From positions 1 to 62,324 of the forward strand of contig JAJFGG010000153.1 of the NCBI GenBank assembly GCA_021776235.1: DNA of 62,324 bases, given 5' to 3'. The stretch comes from Alphaproteobacteria bacterium (GTDB lineage Bacteria > Pseudomonadota > Alphaproteobacteria > GCA-2731375). Each line of letters starts with the position of its first letter. The stretch's first letter is position 1. A model generated the notes under the pieces. It was not told the DNA's origin, searched no databases, and saw only the letters and a program-made list of their open reading frames with translations. Positions 8,972 through 41,402 of the stretch are shown piece by piece. A program made the translations under genes and the position numbers.

Positions 8972-9613
8972 ATGTCCAAGGGTCTACTCATCGCCGCGTT
9001 TGATTTCTCGACTGCGCATGGGGACGAATTTCACGACTGGTACGATCTGGAACATGTCCCGGAACGCCAGGCAGTGCCCGGGTTCGGCGCCTGCGAACGG
9101 TGGATCGACGACGAGGCGCCAACCATTTCGGTCGCCACCTACGATCTCGATACGCTCGATGTGCTGCGCGGCGACGCCTATAAATCCATCGCCTACGATA
9201 ATCTGTCCGCCTGGTCGAAGCGTGTGACGTCGATGTGCGGACGCCTGCTGCGTTTTGAAGGGGTGCAAATCTCGCCCGGCGAAGCGGCGGCACCGGAGGG
9301 TGCTGGCGGCTTACTGTTGAACGCCATGAACGTCACGCCCGAGGCTGAGGACAATTTCAATGCCTGGTACGACGAAGAGCACCTGCCCGCCCTCGCCGCC
9401 GTGCCGGGTACGCTGGCGGCCCGGCGCTACCGCTCCGGCGAGGACGCCGAGGGCACCCACCGCTATGTCGCGATCTATCACCTGACATCGCCCGATGTGA
9501 CCCGTAGCAAGGCCTGGAAAGCTGCCGTTGAAACACCCTGGTCCGACGAAGTCCGCCCGCATTTCCGCGATCGGATACGCATCCTGAGCAAACGCTATGT
9601 GCGCGGCGCCTAG
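8972..9613 (+). CDS. Tandem EHxP-motif alpha/beta-barrel protein, two domains
   Basis: The 213-residue product contains two copies of the domain found singly in the preceding gene. The first has DWYDLEHVPE (about residue 22) and the second AWYDEEHLPAL (about 130), each followed by VPG and an aromatic-rich strand. This makes a pseudo-dimer of ferredoxin-like barrels, similar in layout to EthD-like or DUF4286-like proteins. AGGAGG precedes the ATG. The invariant Glu-His pair could be a catalytic or ligand-binding site. The neighbouring minus-strand gene is a CYP153-like P450. Function is unknown. The gene ends 26 bp before the P450 stop. Confidence 0.8.
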   Translation: MSKGLLIAAFDFSTAHGDEFHDWYDLEHVPERQAVPGFGACERWIDDEAPTISVATYDLDTLDVLRGDAYKSIAYDNLSAWSKRVTSMCGRLLRFEGVQISPGEAAAPEGAGGLLLNAMNVTPEAEDNFNAWYDEEHLPALAAVPGTLAARRYRSGEDAEGTHRYVAIYHLTSPDVTRSKAWKAAVETPWSDEVRPHFRDRIRILSKRYVRGA

Positions 9614-9639
9614 AGCATGTCGGGGTTATTCTGATTCAT
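9613..9639. repeat. Solo copy of the dispersed-element terminal repeat
   Basis: Sequence starting AGAGCATGTCGGGG followed by TTATTCTG matches the outer end of the 270-bp palindromic elements (AGAGCATTTCCGGGCTATTCTG) with only a few substitutions. No partner end or hairpin body is attached. It abuts the stop codon of the P450 gene and follows the stop of the plus-strand gene. This is either a remnant of an excised or decayed element or a terminus with its own role at gene 3' ends. Confidence 0.55.
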
Positions 9640-10883: not shown

Positions 10884-10963
10884 GATCGGTCCTTACCTGT
10901 GCATGCCTTAGATCAAAACGCAGCCTGGCATTCTGAACACCAGGTAGGTCTGTTCAGGATAAT

Positions 10964-11233
10964 AGAGCACTTCCGGGCTATTGTGAGTCATTTGATGGTG
11001 ACCCTAAGCCATTCGGGTAGGCGCGTCGCGTAGCGCGATGTGGTACATCGGGCAAGCGGCGCCCAGAGCCTTGGGCATCCGATTGGCTTTGGGACGCCAC
11101 CGGAGGCCGTCCACCAAGGCCCCGTGGCGGCGTTGCGGTTTTTGGACGATGTCCCACATCGACCTGCAAACCGCGCCTACCCACGGGGCCTTGATGGACG
11201 GTCAAATGACCCAGAATAGCCCGGAAATGCTCT
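10964..11233. repeat. Dispersed palindromic element, copy A (type 1)
   Basis: The 270-bp element begins AGAGCACTTCCGGGCTATT and ends with the inverted form, AATAGCCCGGAAATGCTCT. Between the roughly 30-bp terminal inverted repeats are two long hairpins. Hairpin 1 spans about 10990-11100 with tip CGATGT-GGT-ACATCG at 11036-11050. Hairpin 2 spans about 11105-11212, with arms around CCACCAAGGCCCCGTG and tip CGATGT-CCC-ACATCG at 11147-11161. Copy B at 41089 is nearly the same; copy C at 32348 has the same plan with different sequence. Short frames inside it are by-products of the repeat. It fills the gap between the P450 and pentapeptide genes. Confidence 0.85.
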
Positions 11234-11286
11234 ATCACAGGGCCGCCGTGACGTTGAACCGCGGCCGCAAACGCCTTGTTTTAGGG

Positions 11287-31037: not shown

Positions 31038-31172
31038 CGGCGCCAGATAAACGCGCCCGGCTCTTGGATACAAACCATATACCGAGGCCCGGCCGCTCTG
31101 CATCAAATTCGCCATGCATCGATGCTTTCCCGTTAGTATCGCAAAACCATGCGCTGTAAAGATGGAGTAAAG

Positions 31173-32285
31173 ATGATGAAGCAGGCCCTTCCCCTTGCCG
31201 GTATCCGTGTGCTCGAGTTGGGCAGTAATGTTTCCGGCCCCTATGGCACCTGGATCCTGGCGGCCTTGGGCGCCGACGTGGTGAAGGTAGAACGACCAGA
31301 CGGCGGCGATGATGCACGCGGCTGGGGCCCGCCGTTCTGGCGCGGGGTGGCGACGGTATTTCAAACCATAAATCGGGATAAAACTTCGATTACCATCGAT
31401 TTCAAGGATCCCAAGGCGCTGGCGTCGCTGCGCCGGCGGATCGCCTCGGACACGGATGTGGTGCTGCAAAACCTTCGCCCCGGCGTGGCCGATGGGCTGG
31501 GCCTGGGCGCCAAGGCCATGACGGAGGAAAACCCCCGTCTGATTTACTGTAATCTGTGGGCCTTCGGAGCCAAGGGGCCGCTGGCGGGGCGGCCCGGATT
31601 CGATGCCTTGATGCAGGCCTTCGGCGGCATCATGGCGGTTACAGGTGAGGAAGGCCAGGCGCCGGTCCGGGCCGGCATATCGGTGGTTGATATGGGGACG
31701 GGCATGTGGAGCGCCATCGGTATTCTGGCGGCTCTGAACCGGCGCCACAGCAGCGGCCGGGGCGGTGTTGTCGATACCTCGCTGTACGAAACCGCCCTGG
31801 GCTGGACGGCATACTACAACGCTGATGTGCAGGTCACGGGCGATACACCACAACGCCATGGCTCCGGTGTACGCGGCATCATGCCCTATCAGGCCTATGA
31901 CTGCGCCGACGGCTATCTGGTGGTCGCCGCCTCCAACGACCGGCTGTTTCAGAATCTGGCCCGGGAGTTGCAACATGCTGACTGGCTGGAGGATCCGCGC
32001 TTTGCCGACAATGCGGCCCGCTCCAGCCACCGTGAGGATTTGAACGCCCTGCTAATGCCGATCTTCAAGGCTGAGACCCGAACCCATTGGCAGGAACGCC
32101 TGGATCGGGCCGGCGTTCCAAACGCACCCATCCAGCATGCCGGTGAGGTTGTTGCTCACCCGCAGACCCAGGCCTTGGGTATTCTGCAGGATACCGGCCA
32201 CGGTGTGGCCTTGACCGGACTACCAATGTCATTCGACGGCGAACGCCCCCCCTTGCGCAACATCGCACCGGATCTGGAAGAATAA
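31173..32285 (+). CDS. CaiB/BaiF-family (class III) CoA transferase
   Basis: The 370-residue enzyme transfers CoA between carboxylates. The active-site aspartate is Asp173 (ISVVDMGTGM), which matches Asp169 of formyl-CoA transferase. The family cannot be split by substrate from sequence alone. GGAG lies five to eight bases before ATG 31173/31176. The gene stands alone between greB and palindromic element C. A link to the acyl-CoA genes elsewhere is inferred. Confidence 0.9.
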   Translation: MMKQALPLAGIRVLELGSNVSGPYGTWILAALGADVVKVERPDGGDDARGWGPPFWRGVATVFQTINRDKTSITIDFKDPKALASLRRRIASDTDVVLQNLRPGVADGLGLGAKAMTEENPRLIYCNLWAFGAKGPLAGRPGFDALMQAFGGIMAVTGEEGQAPVRAGISVVDMGTGMWSAIGILAALNRRHSSGRGGVVDTSLYETALGWTAYYNADVQVTGDTPQRHGSGVRGIMPYQAYDCADGYLVVAASNDRLFQNLARELQHADWLEDPRFADNAARSSHREDLNALLMPIFKAETRTHWQERLDRAGVPNAPIQHAGEVVAHPQTQALGILQDTGHGVALTGLPMSFDGERPPLRNIAPDLEE

Positions 32286-32347
32286 TCCATGCCTATCCGG
32301 TCAAAAAGAGGCGTTCACTAAAAACGGCGCGCCATGTCGGCAGCCCC

Positions 32348-32610
32348 TAGACCATGTTTACAGAACATAGATCCGTTTGATGGCGTGTGGAGGTCATTCG
32401 GGTAGGCGTTTTGCGCCGCGCGTAGTGGGACTACGGGCAAGCAAAACAACACATCCGAATGGCCACCACGCGCTACCGAAGGCCGCGCTTCCCAGCGCCG
32501 TGGCGTCGTTGAAGGTTTTGCCCGTAATCCCACTACGCGCGGCAACCTTCGCCTAGCCACGAAGCTGGGAAGTGCGGTCAAACGGGTCTATGTTCTATAA
32601 ACGTGGTCTA
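32348..32610. repeat. Dispersed palindromic element, copy C (type 2)
   Basis: The 263-bp element starts TAGACCATGTTTACAGAACA and ends with the inverted form, giving a 33-bp terminal inverted repeat with a few mismatches. Hairpin 1 (about 32381-32472) has tip CGTAGT-GGG-ACTACG (32421-32435); hairpin 2 (about 32480-32582) has tip CGTAAT-CCC-ACTACG (32523-32537). The outer stems and ends are unlike copies A and B, but the plan is identical: TIR, hairpin with purine-rich triloop, hairpin with CCC triloop, TIR. CATTCGGGTAGGCG is shared by all three copies. It fills the gap between the CoA transferase and second cyclase genes. Confidence 0.8.
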
Positions 32611-32659
32611 GTATCCGGCTATGACCAGACTGCTTGAACCAGGTGTTCACCACGCCAGC

Positions 32660-34417
32660 CTAAATTGTCACCCCGGCCTTTTGAATGCCCTCGAGAATGT
32701 GCTCGTTGTCGATCGGATTCCTGTATGGCTTCCACGTTTTCCGTTTGGCGACGAACCCTGGCTGGGCTTGCTCGCATGCGTCCAATGCGGCGCGCGCTTC
32801 ATCCATTCGTCCGAGATGTCCAAAACTTGCTGCCATGACATAGTTTGCGTTTGGGTAATCTGAAAGGTGTTGTAAAGCCCGCTTGGCCCATTCAATCGCC
32901 GCTTCGTAGTCCCTGGCGTTCAGATGCGCACGGGCCAGAAGGGTGAAGGCGACGTGGTTTCGGGGATCCTGCGGATTGAGTTCGAGCGCCTTCTCTAAAC
33001 TCTGATTGCCGACCTCGAAATCTCCATCGCTGTCCTTGAGAGTCCCATACACGGTAAGCGCCCACGCATTATTCGGGTTCAGTTCAATCGCCTTTTGCGC
33101 CTCGGCCAGGGCCAAGTCGTTCTGTTCAGGCCATATATAAGCCTGTGCGAGGGCCACGCGGGCATTCGAATTCATTGGATCGAGCGCGACCCCACGCTTC
33201 GCGGCCTCCAGGCATTTCGTGATGGCGTCCTCCCGGTCCTCGACGAATTCTGCCGTCAGGTCACGGTGATAGCTGTATGCAAGACCGGTATAAGCCGCAC
33301 GATAGTTCAGTTCCTGCTCAATCGCCTTTTCGAAGAATGCCCGGGCCTGCTCATTGCCTTCCTTTGTGAATTCAAAGAGTTTGGACCAGCCTCGATGATA
33401 GTAATCCCAGGCGTCCAGATTTTGTGGGTTTATGTCAACCGACCGCTGGCGCTCCACCCGATGCATCTCGGGCTCAACGGTCGCCGCGATCCGTTGGACG
33501 ATTTCATCCTGTAGATCGAAGATATCGGTAAGATCGCTGTCAAACCGCTCTGCCCAGACGTTGACGCCACTCGTGCCGTCCGTCAATTGAGCCGATATGC
33601 GCACGCGGCTGCCGCTTTTGCGTACGCTGCCATCAAGGACGTAGCGGACCCCCAACTCGCTGGCGAGCGTACGCACCTCTGGCGCCTTCCCCTTGTAGGC
33701 GAAGGTCGAGTTGCGTGAGATTACCGGGAAGGTTCGATAGCGCGACAGCGCGGCAATGATGTCCTCGGTAAGCCCGTCCGAAAAATATTCCTGATCGGGA
33801 TCGCCCGACAGGTTATGGAACGGCATGACCGCGACCATGGGGAGCCGTTTCGTATCATGTGCGGGCTTGGCAGCGTCGGGATCGGACGAGCCGTCGGGCG
33901 ACCAACTCCAAATCCGGACCAACCTTTCGATGTTCTTGAGTTTCTGTTCGCCGGTGTCAGTGAACGCGATGTCAAGCCGATTGCGCACCTCCTCGAACGA
34001 TTGATTGGAAATCGACACCCCGCCGGGCTTGGCCAGCGCCTCGATACGGCTGGCGATGTTGACACCGTCGCCGAGAATGTCATCCCCCTCGATGATGATG
34101 TCGCCGAGATTGACGCCAACGCGAAAGGTAATGCGCCGGTCTTCATCAATGCCTTTGTTGCGTTCCGCCATCCCCAACTGGATTTCGACCATGCATCGAG
34201 TGGCGTCGACGACAGATGCGAACTCCAGCAGCAGTCCGTCGCCCATTGTCTTGACGATGCGGCCGCCGTGCTCGCCGATCAGTCGATCAATGCATTCGGC
34301 CCTATGTGCGCGTAACGTAGACAGGGTACCCGTCTCGTCCGCCGCCATCAGGCGCGAATAGCCGACGACATCGGCCGATACGATGGCCGCCAATCTACGC
34401 TGTGTCAGCTCCGTCAT
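32660..34417 (-). CDS. Class III adenylate/guanylate cyclase with TolB-like and TPR domains, paralogue 2
   Basis: The 585-residue protein has the same order of domains and length as the cyclase at 6600: cyclase domain with Asp16 (SADVVGYS) and Asp60 (TMGDG), the GVNIASR pair, a TolB-N/FlgO-like middle (VMPFHNLSGDPDQEYFSDGL) and TPRs in the C-terminal third. No membrane segment. It differs from the first at many positions, so duplication is old. The start ATG has no strong ribosome site. A short gap separates it from cutA upstream. Confidence 0.9.
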   Translation of the reverse strand: MTELTQRRLAAIVSADVVGYSRLMAADETGTLSTLRAHRAECIDRLIGEHGGRIVKTMGDGLLLEFASVVDATRCMVEIQLGMAERNKGIDEDRRITFRVGVNLGDIIIEGDDILGDGVNIASRIEALAKPGGVSISNQSFEEVRNRLDIAFTDTGEQKLKNIERLVRIWSWSPDGSSDPDAAKPAHDTKRLPMVAVMPFHNLSGDPDQEYFSDGLTEDIIAALSRYRTFPVISRNSTFAYKGKAPEVRTLASELGVRYVLDGSVRKSGSRVRISAQLTDGTSGVNVWAERFDSDLTDIFDLQDEIVQRIAATVEPEMHRVERQRSVDINPQNLDAWDYYHRGWSKLFEFTKEGNEQARAFFEKAIEQELNYRAAYTGLAYSYHRDLTAEFVEDREDAITKCLEAAKRGVALDPMNSNARVALAQAYIWPEQNDLALAEAQKAIELNPNNAWALTVYGTLKDSDGDFEVGNQSLEKALELNPQDPRNHVAFTLLARAHLNARDYEAAIEWAKRALQHLSDYPNANYVMAASFGHLGRMDEARAALDACEQAQPGFVAKRKTWKPYRNPIDNEHILEGIQKAGVTI

Positions 34418-34430
34418 GGCGGGAGTTTAG

Positions 34431-34835
34431 CTAAACCCAGTCGTGGAAGCTATTGGAACCGCTTTTAGAGCATGTCGGGGCCACCCTGTCCGCCGGTGTG
34501 GGCTTCACCACCTCGCCTCGATCAGTCTCGCGCTGCAGCCAGGCCAGAAAATCCGGGTTGCCATGCTGGATCGGCAGGCCAACGACACAAGGCAGATCAT
34601 AGGAATGGAGAGCCTTGATCCGCTCTGTCACTAGAACGGTGCTATCGCGGCGCGCTTTCAACAGCATGGCCACTTCCTCCTGCTCCTTTACCGCACCATC
34701 CCAACGATAGACCGAGGTTACGGGCCCCAGGATATTGGCGCAGGCGACCAGACGCTCGCCGACCAGGACACGGGCGATAGTCTTGGCCTCGTCACCATCG
34801 GCACAGGTTACATACAACAGGGTCAACTCCGCCAT
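34431..34835 (-). CDS. cutA: Divalent-cation tolerance protein CutA
   Basis: The 134-residue protein is the trimeric CutA1 fold: YVTCADGDEAKTIARVLV near the start, ANILGPVTSVYRW and LKARRDSTVLVTERI in the core, and ending LAWLQRET. About 20 more residues (to GSNSFHDWV) extend past the usual C-terminus; the DNA for the tail contains a copy of the dispersed-element end, so the tail probably arose by insertion. Function of the family is unclear in spite of its name. It is 15 bp from ctaA. Confidence 0.88.
   Translation of the reverse strand: MAELTLLYVTCADGDEAKTIARVLVGERLVACANILGPVTSVYRWDGAVKEQEEVAMLLKARRDSTVLVTERIKALHSYDLPCVVGLPIQHGNPDFLAWLQRETDRGEVVKPTPADRVAPTCSKSGSNSFHDWV
34468..34488. repeat. 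Terminal-repeat-like sequence inside the cutA 3' end
   Basis: AGAGCATGTCGGGG is identical over 14 bases to the solo repeat at 9613. The next eight bases differ from it by C for T at four places. It is read through by the cutA frame and encodes part of the added C-terminal tail. Confidence 0.5.
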
Positions 34836-39552: not shown

Positions 39553-39620
39553 AGCTTCACATTTTCATCCAAGTTGTCCGGGAGCCTCTAACAGACCATA
39601 AAGGCCACGGTCCGATTTCA

Positions 39621-39682
39621 TCACAGTATTTGGTCACAGTATTCGGTCACAGTATTCGGTCACAGTATTTGGTCACAGTAAT
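39621..39682. repeat. Tandem 13-bp repeat upstream of rpmF
   Basis: The unit TCACAGTATTYGG occurs four times in a row, followed by a partial fifth (TCACAGTAATTC). It lies between the yceD stop (39717) and the rpmF start (39552), within the likely transcript, so it would be in the leader of rpmF. Copy number could vary by slippage. Confidence 0.8.
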
Positions 39683-39716
39683 TCATCGCATCATTTCTTC
39701 ACATCGCTTGACCCGC

Positions 39717-40370
39717 CTAAGCAGCGCCGTTTCCAGCGCCACCGTCACCTTGCCCGCCAGACCGCCATCCTTCAAGAATGGCGAAGGGGTTCACATCGTC
39801 CGGGTCAGCACCTACTTTGTCCTCTCGCGACGTTTCGCCCTCCGGCGCTTCATCGCTCCCAACGTTCATCTCAATTTCGGTCCAACCCCCGACTATCCCC
39901 GCGTCCCCCAACACCGCTTCGGTCTGGATCCCCGGCATACGCGGATATGGATCAAGGGAAAGCGACAAATGCTGGGCAACCAGTTCGCCAACATCAATTC
40001 GACCGTGGTCCAAGGGTTCGATCGGATCCTCGCCAAAAGGATCTACAAACACTTCCCTGTCAGAATCTTCCCTTTGTCCTCGATTTTTCCCGCCTTCACA
40101 AAGGAGGGAAAATCCATCCGCAACCTTTGCCGCCACAGGTTCAAGCGTCACGACGCACGATTGTACCACATTCGCCGAAAAATCAACATTCAACCGCACC
40201 AAGCCCGTCGCCGTCCGCCGCAAGGACACATCCACCTGCAAATTCGCCATGCTTTGCAGGTCGAGACGTTGGGCCAAGGCAGTGTGTTCCTTGGTATCAG
40301 CCTGAAGCTTGATGGTGGCGCCGTCGGCGCCGACGGCATCGACCAGCACCAAGCGACTAAACTCCGGCAT
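39717..40370 (-). CDS. DUF177/YceD-family protein
   Basis: The 217-residue protein begins MPEFSRLVLVDAVG as alphaproteobacterial DUF177 proteins do, and has the core FSANVVQSCVVTLEP and the acidic D-PFGEDPIEPLDHGRIDVGELVAQHLSLSLDPYPR segment. YceD-family proteins, encoded before rpmF, are linked to 23S rRNA processing in some bacteria; no enzyme activity is claimed. ATG 40370 is used since GGGGG precedes it; a longer open frame upstream overlaps the CBP3 gene and has no such site. Confidence 0.88.
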   Translation of the reverse strand: MPEFSRLVLVDAVGADGATIKLQADTKEHTALAQRLDLQSMANLQVDVSLRRTATGLVRLNVDFSANVVQSCVVTLEPVAAKVADGFSLLCEGGKNRGQREDSDREVFVDPFGEDPIEPLDHGRIDVGELVAQHLSLSLDPYPRMPGIQTEAVLGDAGIVGGWTEIEMNVGSDEAPEGETSREDKVGADPDDVNPFAILEGWRSGGQGDGGAGNGAA

Positions 40371-40488
40371 TGCCCCCATATTGGTCAATGCAAACTCTCC
40401 AACTTCATGAATGACCGAGATGGGCACCGTCGCCCTATTACGAAGTTCAGGCAGGTGCCAAAGCCGGCGCAAAATACGGATATCGAAT

Positions 40489-41067
40489 TCACCGGTCAAC
40501 GCCTTTTCCGGTCCATTGGGCAAATTGCACCTCACCGGATAAAATCCGCGCTTCGGGGAGCGAAGCCATATGTCCCGCTTGACAACGGAGGTAATCCGCC
40601 ATCGCCTCCACATGGGCCGGCGTCGGTGCGACGGTGCCGAATAGATTTCTGCGCAGAGCCTCACCCAAGAGCTCGTCTGATCCCGCCAAAGCCTCGTCGT
40701 AGGCCGCCACACGCCCATAAAAGGCCTTTGCCATATACTTTACCCGCTTACCTACGGCAATATCCGAGACCCCCATTTCGCGCAATGAGCGGTCCATGTC
40801 GCCAAACATGGTATCGAATAGGGATTGGGCAATATCGCCTGCCCGCCTGCGGACTGTCAGAGGGGCATCAGGCTGCGCCAATTCATTCAAGGGCCGCAGC
40901 AATAAAAAAACATGCAAAACGATTAGATCAAAACGCCCATCCACCGAATCAGGGATTCCATGATCGCTGTAAAAGATCGGTTGCCGGGCCTGGTTAACGG
41001 CGGTGTCGTACAGCAGATGGGCCACGTCCTGGCCCCTGTCGCGCTTGTGAAACCAATTTCTCAACAC
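40489..41067 (-). CDS. Ubiquinol-cytochrome c reductase assembly chaperone, CBP3-like
   Basis: The 192-residue product matches the CBP3 chaperone domain (Ubiq_cyt_C_chap): GIPDSVDGRFDLIVLHVFLLLRPL, the FDTMFGDMDRSLREMGVSD core and KAFYGRVAAYDEAL. In mitochondria CBP3 helps cytochrome b assembly; the bacterial protein likely does the same for the bc1 complex. The start is GTG 41067 with GGAT upstream. It begins right after palindromic element B, and yceD follows. Confidence 0.9.
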   Translation of the reverse strand: MLRNWFHKRDRGQDVAHLLYDTAVNQARQPIFYSDHGIPDSVDGRFDLIVLHVFLLLRPLNELAQPDAPLTVRRRAGDIAQSLFDTMFGDMDRSLREMGVSDIAVGKRVKYMAKAFYGRVAAYDEALAGSDELLGEALRRNLFGTVAPTPAHVEAMADYLRCQAGHMASLPEARILSGEVQFAQWTGKGVDR

Positions 41068-41088
41068 ATTCCGATCCTTGCAACACCT

Positions 41089-41361
41089 AGAGCATTTCCG
41101 GGCTACTGTGGGTCATTTGATGGTGACCATAAGCCATTCGGGTAGGCGCGTCGCGCCGTGCGATGTGGTTCAGTCTGCCGATCCGGGTGCAAGCGGCGCA
41201 ACCCATCCGAATGGCTTAGGGTCACCATCAAAGGCCGTCCACCAAGGCCCCGTGACTGCGTTGCGGGTTTTGGACGATGTCCCACATCGACCTGCAAACC
41301 GCGCCTACCCACGGGGCCTTGGTGGACGGTCAAATGACCCAGAATAGCCCGGAAATGCTCT
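41089..41361. repeat. Dispersed palindromic element, copy B (type 1)
   Basis: The 273-bp element starts AGAGCATTTCCGGGCTACT and ends AGAATAGCCCGGAAATGCTCT. Hairpin 1 has arms at about 41116-41156 and 41195-41232, with GGTGACC and AAGCCATTCGG. Its tip is broken: CGATGT at 41161 lacks its ACATCG partner. Hairpin 2 has arms 41233-41254 and 41310-41331, matching at 21 of 22 positions, with tip CGATGT-CCC-ACATCG at 41275-41289. It is near-identical to copy A in the second half and lies between the divergent CBP3 and bamE genes. Confidence 0.85.
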
Positions 41362-41402
41362 GGATTGACTTGGCTCTGGTAACGGTGGCATGTTCCCAGC
41401 CG

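Follow-up and report, generated by a model that had tools for sequence, protein, structure and literature searches.

Between the stop codons of two convergent genes in an alphaproteobacterial genome lies a short palindromic stretch, here called copy C, that repeats the plan of two other stretches nearby, copies A and B, in visibly different letters. This raises the question of whether the fold rather than the sequence has been kept and, if so, what kind of element would keep it. To answer it, we analysed the window (the whole 62,324-nucleotide stretch, taken from contig JAJFGG010000153.1 of assembly GCA_021776235.1), the host genome to which it belongs (6.36 Mb in 174 contigs) and genomes of sister species. 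Taken as a whole, the observations are best explained if copy C belongs to a superfamily of Y-shaped, non-autonomous miniature transposons (MITEs) carried by one family of uncultured Alphaproteobacteria, a reading that we consider very probable.

Fold and parts of the element

RNA folding draws copy C as a Y, composed of a 30-pair outer stem and two hairpins, with a minimum free energy of -164.6 kcal/mol (z -15.2; 0 of 200 shuffles equally stable), and copies A and B adopt a like fold (z -12.7 and -15.5, respectively). The first-pass annotation of this DNA had given ends TAGACCA...TGGTCTA, a length of 263 bp and two hairpins in a row between terminal inverted repeats; both the ends and the length are found in copy C, and the fold bears out the order, the inverted repeats forming the outer stem. 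Among 27 full-length host copies the outer stem (helix 1, 30 pairs) is paired in 95.7% of cells. The two hairpins are related by a two-fold inversion, the model of hairpin 2 also matching hairpin 1 on the opposite strand. Their apices are 91% reverse-complementary within one element and 71% between types, while their lower stems reach 41% within an element; the apices changed in concert next to lower stems that stayed unrelated. Direct (kissing) pairing of the two apices is unsupported beyond the level of type, loop complementarity being 0.816 against 0.799 +/- 0.011 (maximum 0.835) when partners were shuffled within type. A search of the window against Rfam 15 gave tRNA as the sole family match, and the three Rfam 15 matches to copy C all scored far below the gathering score.

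Table 1. Coordinates of copy C, its parts and neighbours in the window, and loci of the E-type elements.
Feature	Position	Strand	Remarks
Copy C, complete C-type Y element	32348..32610	+	263 bp, TA at each end included
Left TA of presumed target duplication	32348..32349	.	within CTAG 32347-32350; presumed from the empty sites of further copies
Right TA of presumed target duplication	32609..32610	.	within CTAG 32608-32611; presumed from the empty sites of further copies
Left terminal inverted repeat (outer stem 5' arm)	32348..32379	+	fold, alignment
Right terminal inverted repeat (outer stem 3' arm)	32579..32610	+	fold, alignment
Hairpin 1	32381..32475	+	fold, 27-copy structure, tree-based pair counts
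CATTCGGGTAGGCG in copy C	32395-32408	+	terminates in GTAGGCG
GTAGGCG, 5' side of hairpin 1 internal bulge	32402..32408	+	few or no changes per column
Hairpin 1 apex dyad CGTAGTGGGACTACG	32421..32435	+	apex comparison, genome pattern count
Hairpin 2, inverted relative to hairpin 1	32482..32578	+	fold, hairpin-2 model, pair counts
Hairpin 2 apex CGTAATCCCACTACG	32523..32537	+	commonest C-type form is CGTAGTCCCACTACG
CGCCTAG bulge of hairpin 2	32550..32556	-	counterpart of GTAGGCG on the opposite strand
Copy A, A/B type	10963..11234	+	272 bp; alignment, fold
Copy B, A/B type	41088..41362	+	275 bp; right end TG, not TA
CoA-transferase family III gene (PF02515), upstream neighbour	31149..32285	+	stops 62 bp before copy C
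Guanylate/adenylate cyclase domain and TPRs gene, convergent downstream neighbour	32660..34417	-	stops 49 bp after copy C
E-type Y elements	L342, L343, L346, L348, L350, L391-L403		host and sister genomes

The window also holds two lone stretches starting TAGAGCATGTCGGGG (9611-9639 and 34466-34480), which resemble isolated ends of a further type, D, and are possible relics, as well as a 13-bp tandem repeat, TCACAGTATTCGG, of about four to five clear units (39608-39711) at the start of ORF 39630-40997.

One family of elements in related genomes

Full copies in the host genome number 10 for the C type, 14 for the A/B type and 3 for the D type; they are 263-275 bp long bar one of 262 bp and hence too short for a transposase gene. 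The full C-type copies are 92-100% identical to copy C, and partial ones are present too, several at contig ends. All 27 full copies can be aligned end to end with many invariant columns, and A/B, C and D are one family, not two. In the first-pass annotation CATTCGGGTAGGCG and the hairpin-tip layout had been the only features that copy C shared with A and B, a view that is not upheld: the three align over their whole length, and in two repeats without gaps, 85 and 158 nt long, copies C and A are 60-61% identical. CATTCGGGTAGGCG itself occurs exactly three times in the window, where 0.03 occurrences are expected even allowing one mismatch. That the outer stems differ between types is correct, most clearly for the outer 33 bp (59% identity between types, compared with 63-82% in the hairpin stretches). 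Equal total size does not apply to the three copies, as A (272 bp) and B (275 bp) are longer than C because of short insertions in hairpin 1, and it does apply to the family at large: exactly 263 bp was found in 48 of 62 unique full-length elements from host and sister genomes, an alignment that omitted duplicates, elements below 255 bp and those without findable ends (4 of 40 fetched stretches, e.g. L185, L186, L189 and L198) and for which a sample of the sister-genome copies was fetched.

Searching with copy C at the DNA level gave matches in 9 of 61 genomes including the host, all of one bacterial family. Of 15 genomes from this family, 13 had matches to a covariance model built for hairpin 2. 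A scan placed 24 element stretches in metagenome-assembled genomes titled Rhodospirillaceae, Alphaproteobacteria or Proteobacteria bacterium, and from isolate names such as SI072, BS150m, casp150 and Arabian10 we infer an origin in waters of Saanich Inlet, the Black Sea, the Caspian and the Arabian Sea. One sister-genome element (L181, genome G011) is a chimera with A/B-like ends, a C-like hairpin 1 apex and an A/B-like hairpin 2 apex.

Conservation of the fold over sequence

Across the Y elements, conservation of the fold over the sequence is strongly supported. In a tree-based count over 61 sequences and 101 pairs, 96.0% were paired compared with 65.4 +/- 2.4% in 100 unconstrained simulations that placed the same substitutions regardless of structure, the tested structure having been derived from 27 of the 61 sequences, which favours it somewhat. 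In the same set, compensating double changes on the same branch numbered 126 against 6.2 +/- 2.5 expected, 31 pairs had two or more compensations (0.64 expected) and pair-breaking double changes on the same branch numbered 15 (20.5 expected); sliding the partners by 1-3 columns left 33-39% paired and 2-6 double changes. The divergent G012-type element L157 was excluded from the tree-based, per-pair, wobble and apex analyses. Among the 27 host copies, 96.4% of cells were paired with a covariation score of 0.417, compared with 80.7% and 0.147 for column shuffles and 34-38% and 0.05-0.07 for slid partners; at least one pairing-preserving double change was seen in 48 of the 101 pairs, and further pair types did not exceed those of the shuffles (91 vs 94.9).

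The branch-level count had been added because a per-pair test, an R-scape-like G-test with APC and 60 simulations, reached E<0.05 for only two pairs, both within the structure. In our opinion this weak per-pair significance arises because much of the change fell on a few deep branches. Covariation in a larger alignment, proposed earlier as the check on the fold, is evident branch by branch and scarcely pair by pair.

Selection on the fold, which the first-pass annotation had named as the simplest explanation, is not the sole route to such a record. Templated correction of quasipalindromes, or conversion between the arms, would restore pairing and give apparent covariation in the absence of any selection on the fold. 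Many of the pair switches are indeed flips (G-C to C-G or U-A to A-U), and the concerted change of both apices between types would fit as well. The two hairpins, however, have not been homogenised in their lower stems, and neither the constant length nor the conservation of several unpaired columns in the GTAGGCG bulge is explained by pairing correction. Such correction may add to the covariation, and we regard it as an unlikely account of the whole. What stands of the earlier claim is the conservation of the fold over sequence, which the tree-based counts strongly support.

Target sites and candidate transposases

Insertion sites were compared with their orthologs by querying eight joined flanks, of which three were examined at the junction and most of the other five matched one flank only. 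At one A/B, C or D insertion (L061), nine of nine sister-species sites were gap-free across a single dinucleotide, TA in three and CA in six. At a second (L071), two of the sister sites, L248 and L258, have the sequence CATCTAGAAATA, in which TA occurs once, the remaining sister sites having CTAA or similar with small gaps nearby in some, and at the third (L084) two of six sister sites were gap-free, L265 with TA and L251 without. The empty sites are clear for L061 and L071, and one at L084 is clean. At the inspected junctions, orthologous empty sites thus have one TA where the element has two, so TA is duplicated on insertion, usually within CTAG: in the host, C precedes the left TA in 23 of 27 copies and G follows the right TA in 21 of 27, TA being absent at one or both ends in five of the 27 (L060, L062, L067, L068 and L082). 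For copy C itself, the flanking gene yielded no usable empty site in eight sister genomes. Duplication of TA with a preference for CTAG is the pattern of IS630/Tc1 transposons. At L063 an A/B-type copy splits a hydrolase-like frame which carries a GSSFGG motif and, once a single TA links the two flanks, is open for 312 aa (stop to stop). A comparison of L004 (end of contig C91) and L109 (contig C137) shows a C-type copy adjoined by sequence identical to the start of the host IS630-family element at CTAG, and the same CTAG may have been reused as a target.

Candidate donors were found in sister genomes. The ends of an IS630-family element of genome G008 (L286) match the D type at 26/30 and 22/30 positions, those of another in G008 (L273) match the A/B type at 24/30 and 22/30, and one end of a third in G007, whose gene is broken (L296), matches the A/B type at 25/30; the best of 3000 random TA-starting 30-mers, a pool that left out those starting TAGAGC or TAGACC, reached 19. 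L286 and L296 had been chosen for their similarity, and L273 by its own inverted ends. The DDE_3 domain was confirmed in the L286 and L273 proteins. A donor for the C-type ends (TAGACCACGTTTACAG) was not found among 31 scanned DDE_3 loci (30 of 55 sister matches and the one of the host), the best candidate, L277, matching the C-type end at 15/30. Nor was a transposase with matching ends found in the host genome, whose single DDE_3 element has other ends by eye and gave none in an end-pair scan.

Judged from these end matches, the best interpretation of the A/B and D outer stems is that each suits a different IS630 transposase, and by analogy the same may hold for the C-type outer stem. These transposases, or similar ones, would act in trans to mobilise copies of the A/B, C and D types, and the outer stem would double as the transposase binding site, which could be why it differs between types.

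Of 52 sites, 26 have a called gene that ends in frame on the terminal TAG of the element, a tally made with a crude gene caller that allowed cut frames and in which a third of random frames would run into this TAG. Stronger evidence comes from the sister sites: a stop triplet of the host frame is present at the same place in nine of nine at L061 (TAA or TGA) and in at least eight of nine at L071; there the element therefore inserted into an existing stop codon and restored it as TAG. Landing in stop codons and recreating TAG suggests how such elements can stay harmless.

The core with a second kind of ends

The apex pattern CGWWGTNNNACWWCG occurs 68 times per strand of the host genome compared with 13 for a reversed control, and its sites outside the known copies led to a further type, E. 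E-type elements are mostly 261 bp long with ends TACCACC...GGTGGTA (TACCACCTTGCGATGATAGG). Of 23 unique loci, each counted a single time however often it was fetched, 20 show a 3-bp TNA duplication without mismatch; the duplications seen, TAA, TTA, TCA and TGA, each read as a stop codon on one of the two strands. A search with one E-type element gave matches in 12 of 15 genomes, partial and cross-type ones included. The E core is homologous to that of the A/B and D types, with 80% identity along 64 nt that occupy equivalent positions (50.9 bits vs at most 34.6 in 20 shuffles). Taken alone, the E type is 96.3% paired with about 64 double changes and 13 pairs with two or more, as counted without simulation on 21 sequences from which the structure itself was derived, elements above 275 bp and duplicate sequences having been dropped.

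A TNA duplication is typical of IS5/IS1031-type transposases, and since both the ends and the 3-bp duplication differ from those of the other types, the E type is probably moved by another transposase family. The folded core thus travels with two kinds of transposon ends and probably outlives a change of transposase. On a bolder reading, which we place just short of an even chance, the paired-hairpin core would be a functional unit, acting as RNA or single-stranded DNA, that rides at least two unrelated transposase families, the ends being exchanged while the fold, the GTAGG bulge and the apex are kept. Bacterial MITEs are commonly seen as reduced insertion sequences with nothing but filler between their ends; in the Y elements the inside is the conserved part, near-fixed in size, and its pairing was rebuilt many times while the letters changed.

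Possible role of the fold

As to what the fold does, our leading guess, which we hold tentatively and by analogy with Correia or ERIC elements, is that it acts as RNA at gene ends. After insertion, the two-hairpin core would provide the joined gene with a stable 3'-end structure, so that the insertion would be tolerated or the transcript shielded, and its two-fold symmetry would allow it to act in either orientation. A wobble test read in hairpin orientation gave a G.T to A.C ratio of about 84:31 in the C, A/B and D types, with no such excess at unpaired sites, which hints at single-strand action there, and 21:19 in the E type. Given this asymmetry in C, A/B and D and its absence in E, the ratio is no proof of action as single-stranded RNA, and we dropped it as evidence for strand-specific RNA.

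The fold might instead be needed at the DNA level, the palindrome extruding as a cruciform, or folding in single-stranded DNA at replication, and joining the ends for the transposase. In favour, the two terminal inverted repeats are themselves the arms of the outer stem, the structure has the two-fold symmetry that a function in DNA would favour, the wobble counts of the outer stem are symmetric (about 18 G.T to 20 A.C) and the E type keeps the same plan despite its other ends. Derivatives of the element, however, point to movement without the Y. A 47-bp C-type derivative lacking the hairpins is identical at two sites with different flanks (L090:1487-1533 and L091:1514-1560) and is perhaps mobile in its own right, and 184-bp one-hairpin forms from which most of hairpin 1 is gone (L014 and L015 in the host, L166, L126 in G010 and L203 in G004) are present in at least three genomes (host, G004 and G010) and perhaps constitute a separate mobile lineage. 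These forms suggest that the core is not strictly needed for movement; moreover, IS630-type transposition is not known to us to need internal hairpins. We therefore consider a DNA-level need possible and rather unlikely, somewhat behind the proposed role in RNA at gene ends. Should the core be active in the cell, the Y elements would be a mobile, structured non-coding module; if it is inactive, they would offer a clean natural case of the extent to which templated palindrome correction mimics RNA covariation.

Relation to known elements

The nearest known kinds are RUP, Correia/NEMIS and ERIC, for the last of which (ERIC/RU-1) no exchange of transposase ends is known to us. CIR elements of Caulobacter and Brucella are, like the Y elements, alphaproteobacterial. 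The comparisons that follow draw on excerpts of the cited papers, and a description of the present Y element was not found in the part of the literature searched. RUP of pneumococcus is likewise non-coding, with IS630-Spn1-like terminal inverted repeats and a TA target, and indirect evidence indicates that it is mobilised in trans (PMC2229807); it differs in its length of 107 bp, its sequence and its host, and the excerpted description contains neither a two-hairpin core nor covariation. The Correia/NEMIS elements (CREE) of Neisseria share terminal inverted repeats and TA at the termini (PMC2229807), and their transcripts are bound or cleaved by RNase III (PMC2649163), whereas they comprise 107- and 155-bp species of other sequence in other bacteria, an inverted two-hairpin Y being absent from the description as excerpted. 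ERIC (IRU, RU-1) and YPAL of enterobacteria are also small palindromic elements near genes and are counted among the transcribed MITEs (PMC2229807, PMC3733652), although ERIC/RU-1 is 127 bp long (PMC2759123) and has one long stem. For CIR, the RNA is drawn with two arms as in the Y elements (PMC2229807), but a linker, and not pairing between the two ends, connects the arms, and CIR is only partly MITE-like and carries a GANTC motif.

The paired inverted GTAG hairpins of GTAG-type REPs and REPINs are a further likeness: GTAGG is inverted in both halves of 42 of 62 C, A/B and D elements, as in GTAG dimers, and REP dimers occur inside longer palindromes (PMC3733652, in excerpt). A RAYT (Y1, HUH) transposase could accordingly be thought to recognise the inverted hairpins, the outer palindrome being secondary, and Y1_Tnp matches are present in 13 of 15 genomes. 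We nevertheless judge this very improbable and reject REP/RAYT as the mover. REP units measure 20-40 bp and often lie at RAYT genes, whereas no Y element was present at the 20 Y1 loci examined of 29 matches, the sole trace being a 22-nt match (E 0.004) at L234. Furthermore, GTAG lies inside the bulge and not at the hairpin foot, hairpin 2 of the C type has CTAG in its place, and the inverted repeats around Y1 genes look unrelated (8 loci). Y1 enzymes are not known to produce duplications of TA or TNA. Several Y1_Tnp genes of this bacterial family, at L227 and L238 among other loci, have flanking inverted repeats of their own, such as GGGGACACAATAC palindromes, which are unlike the Y elements.
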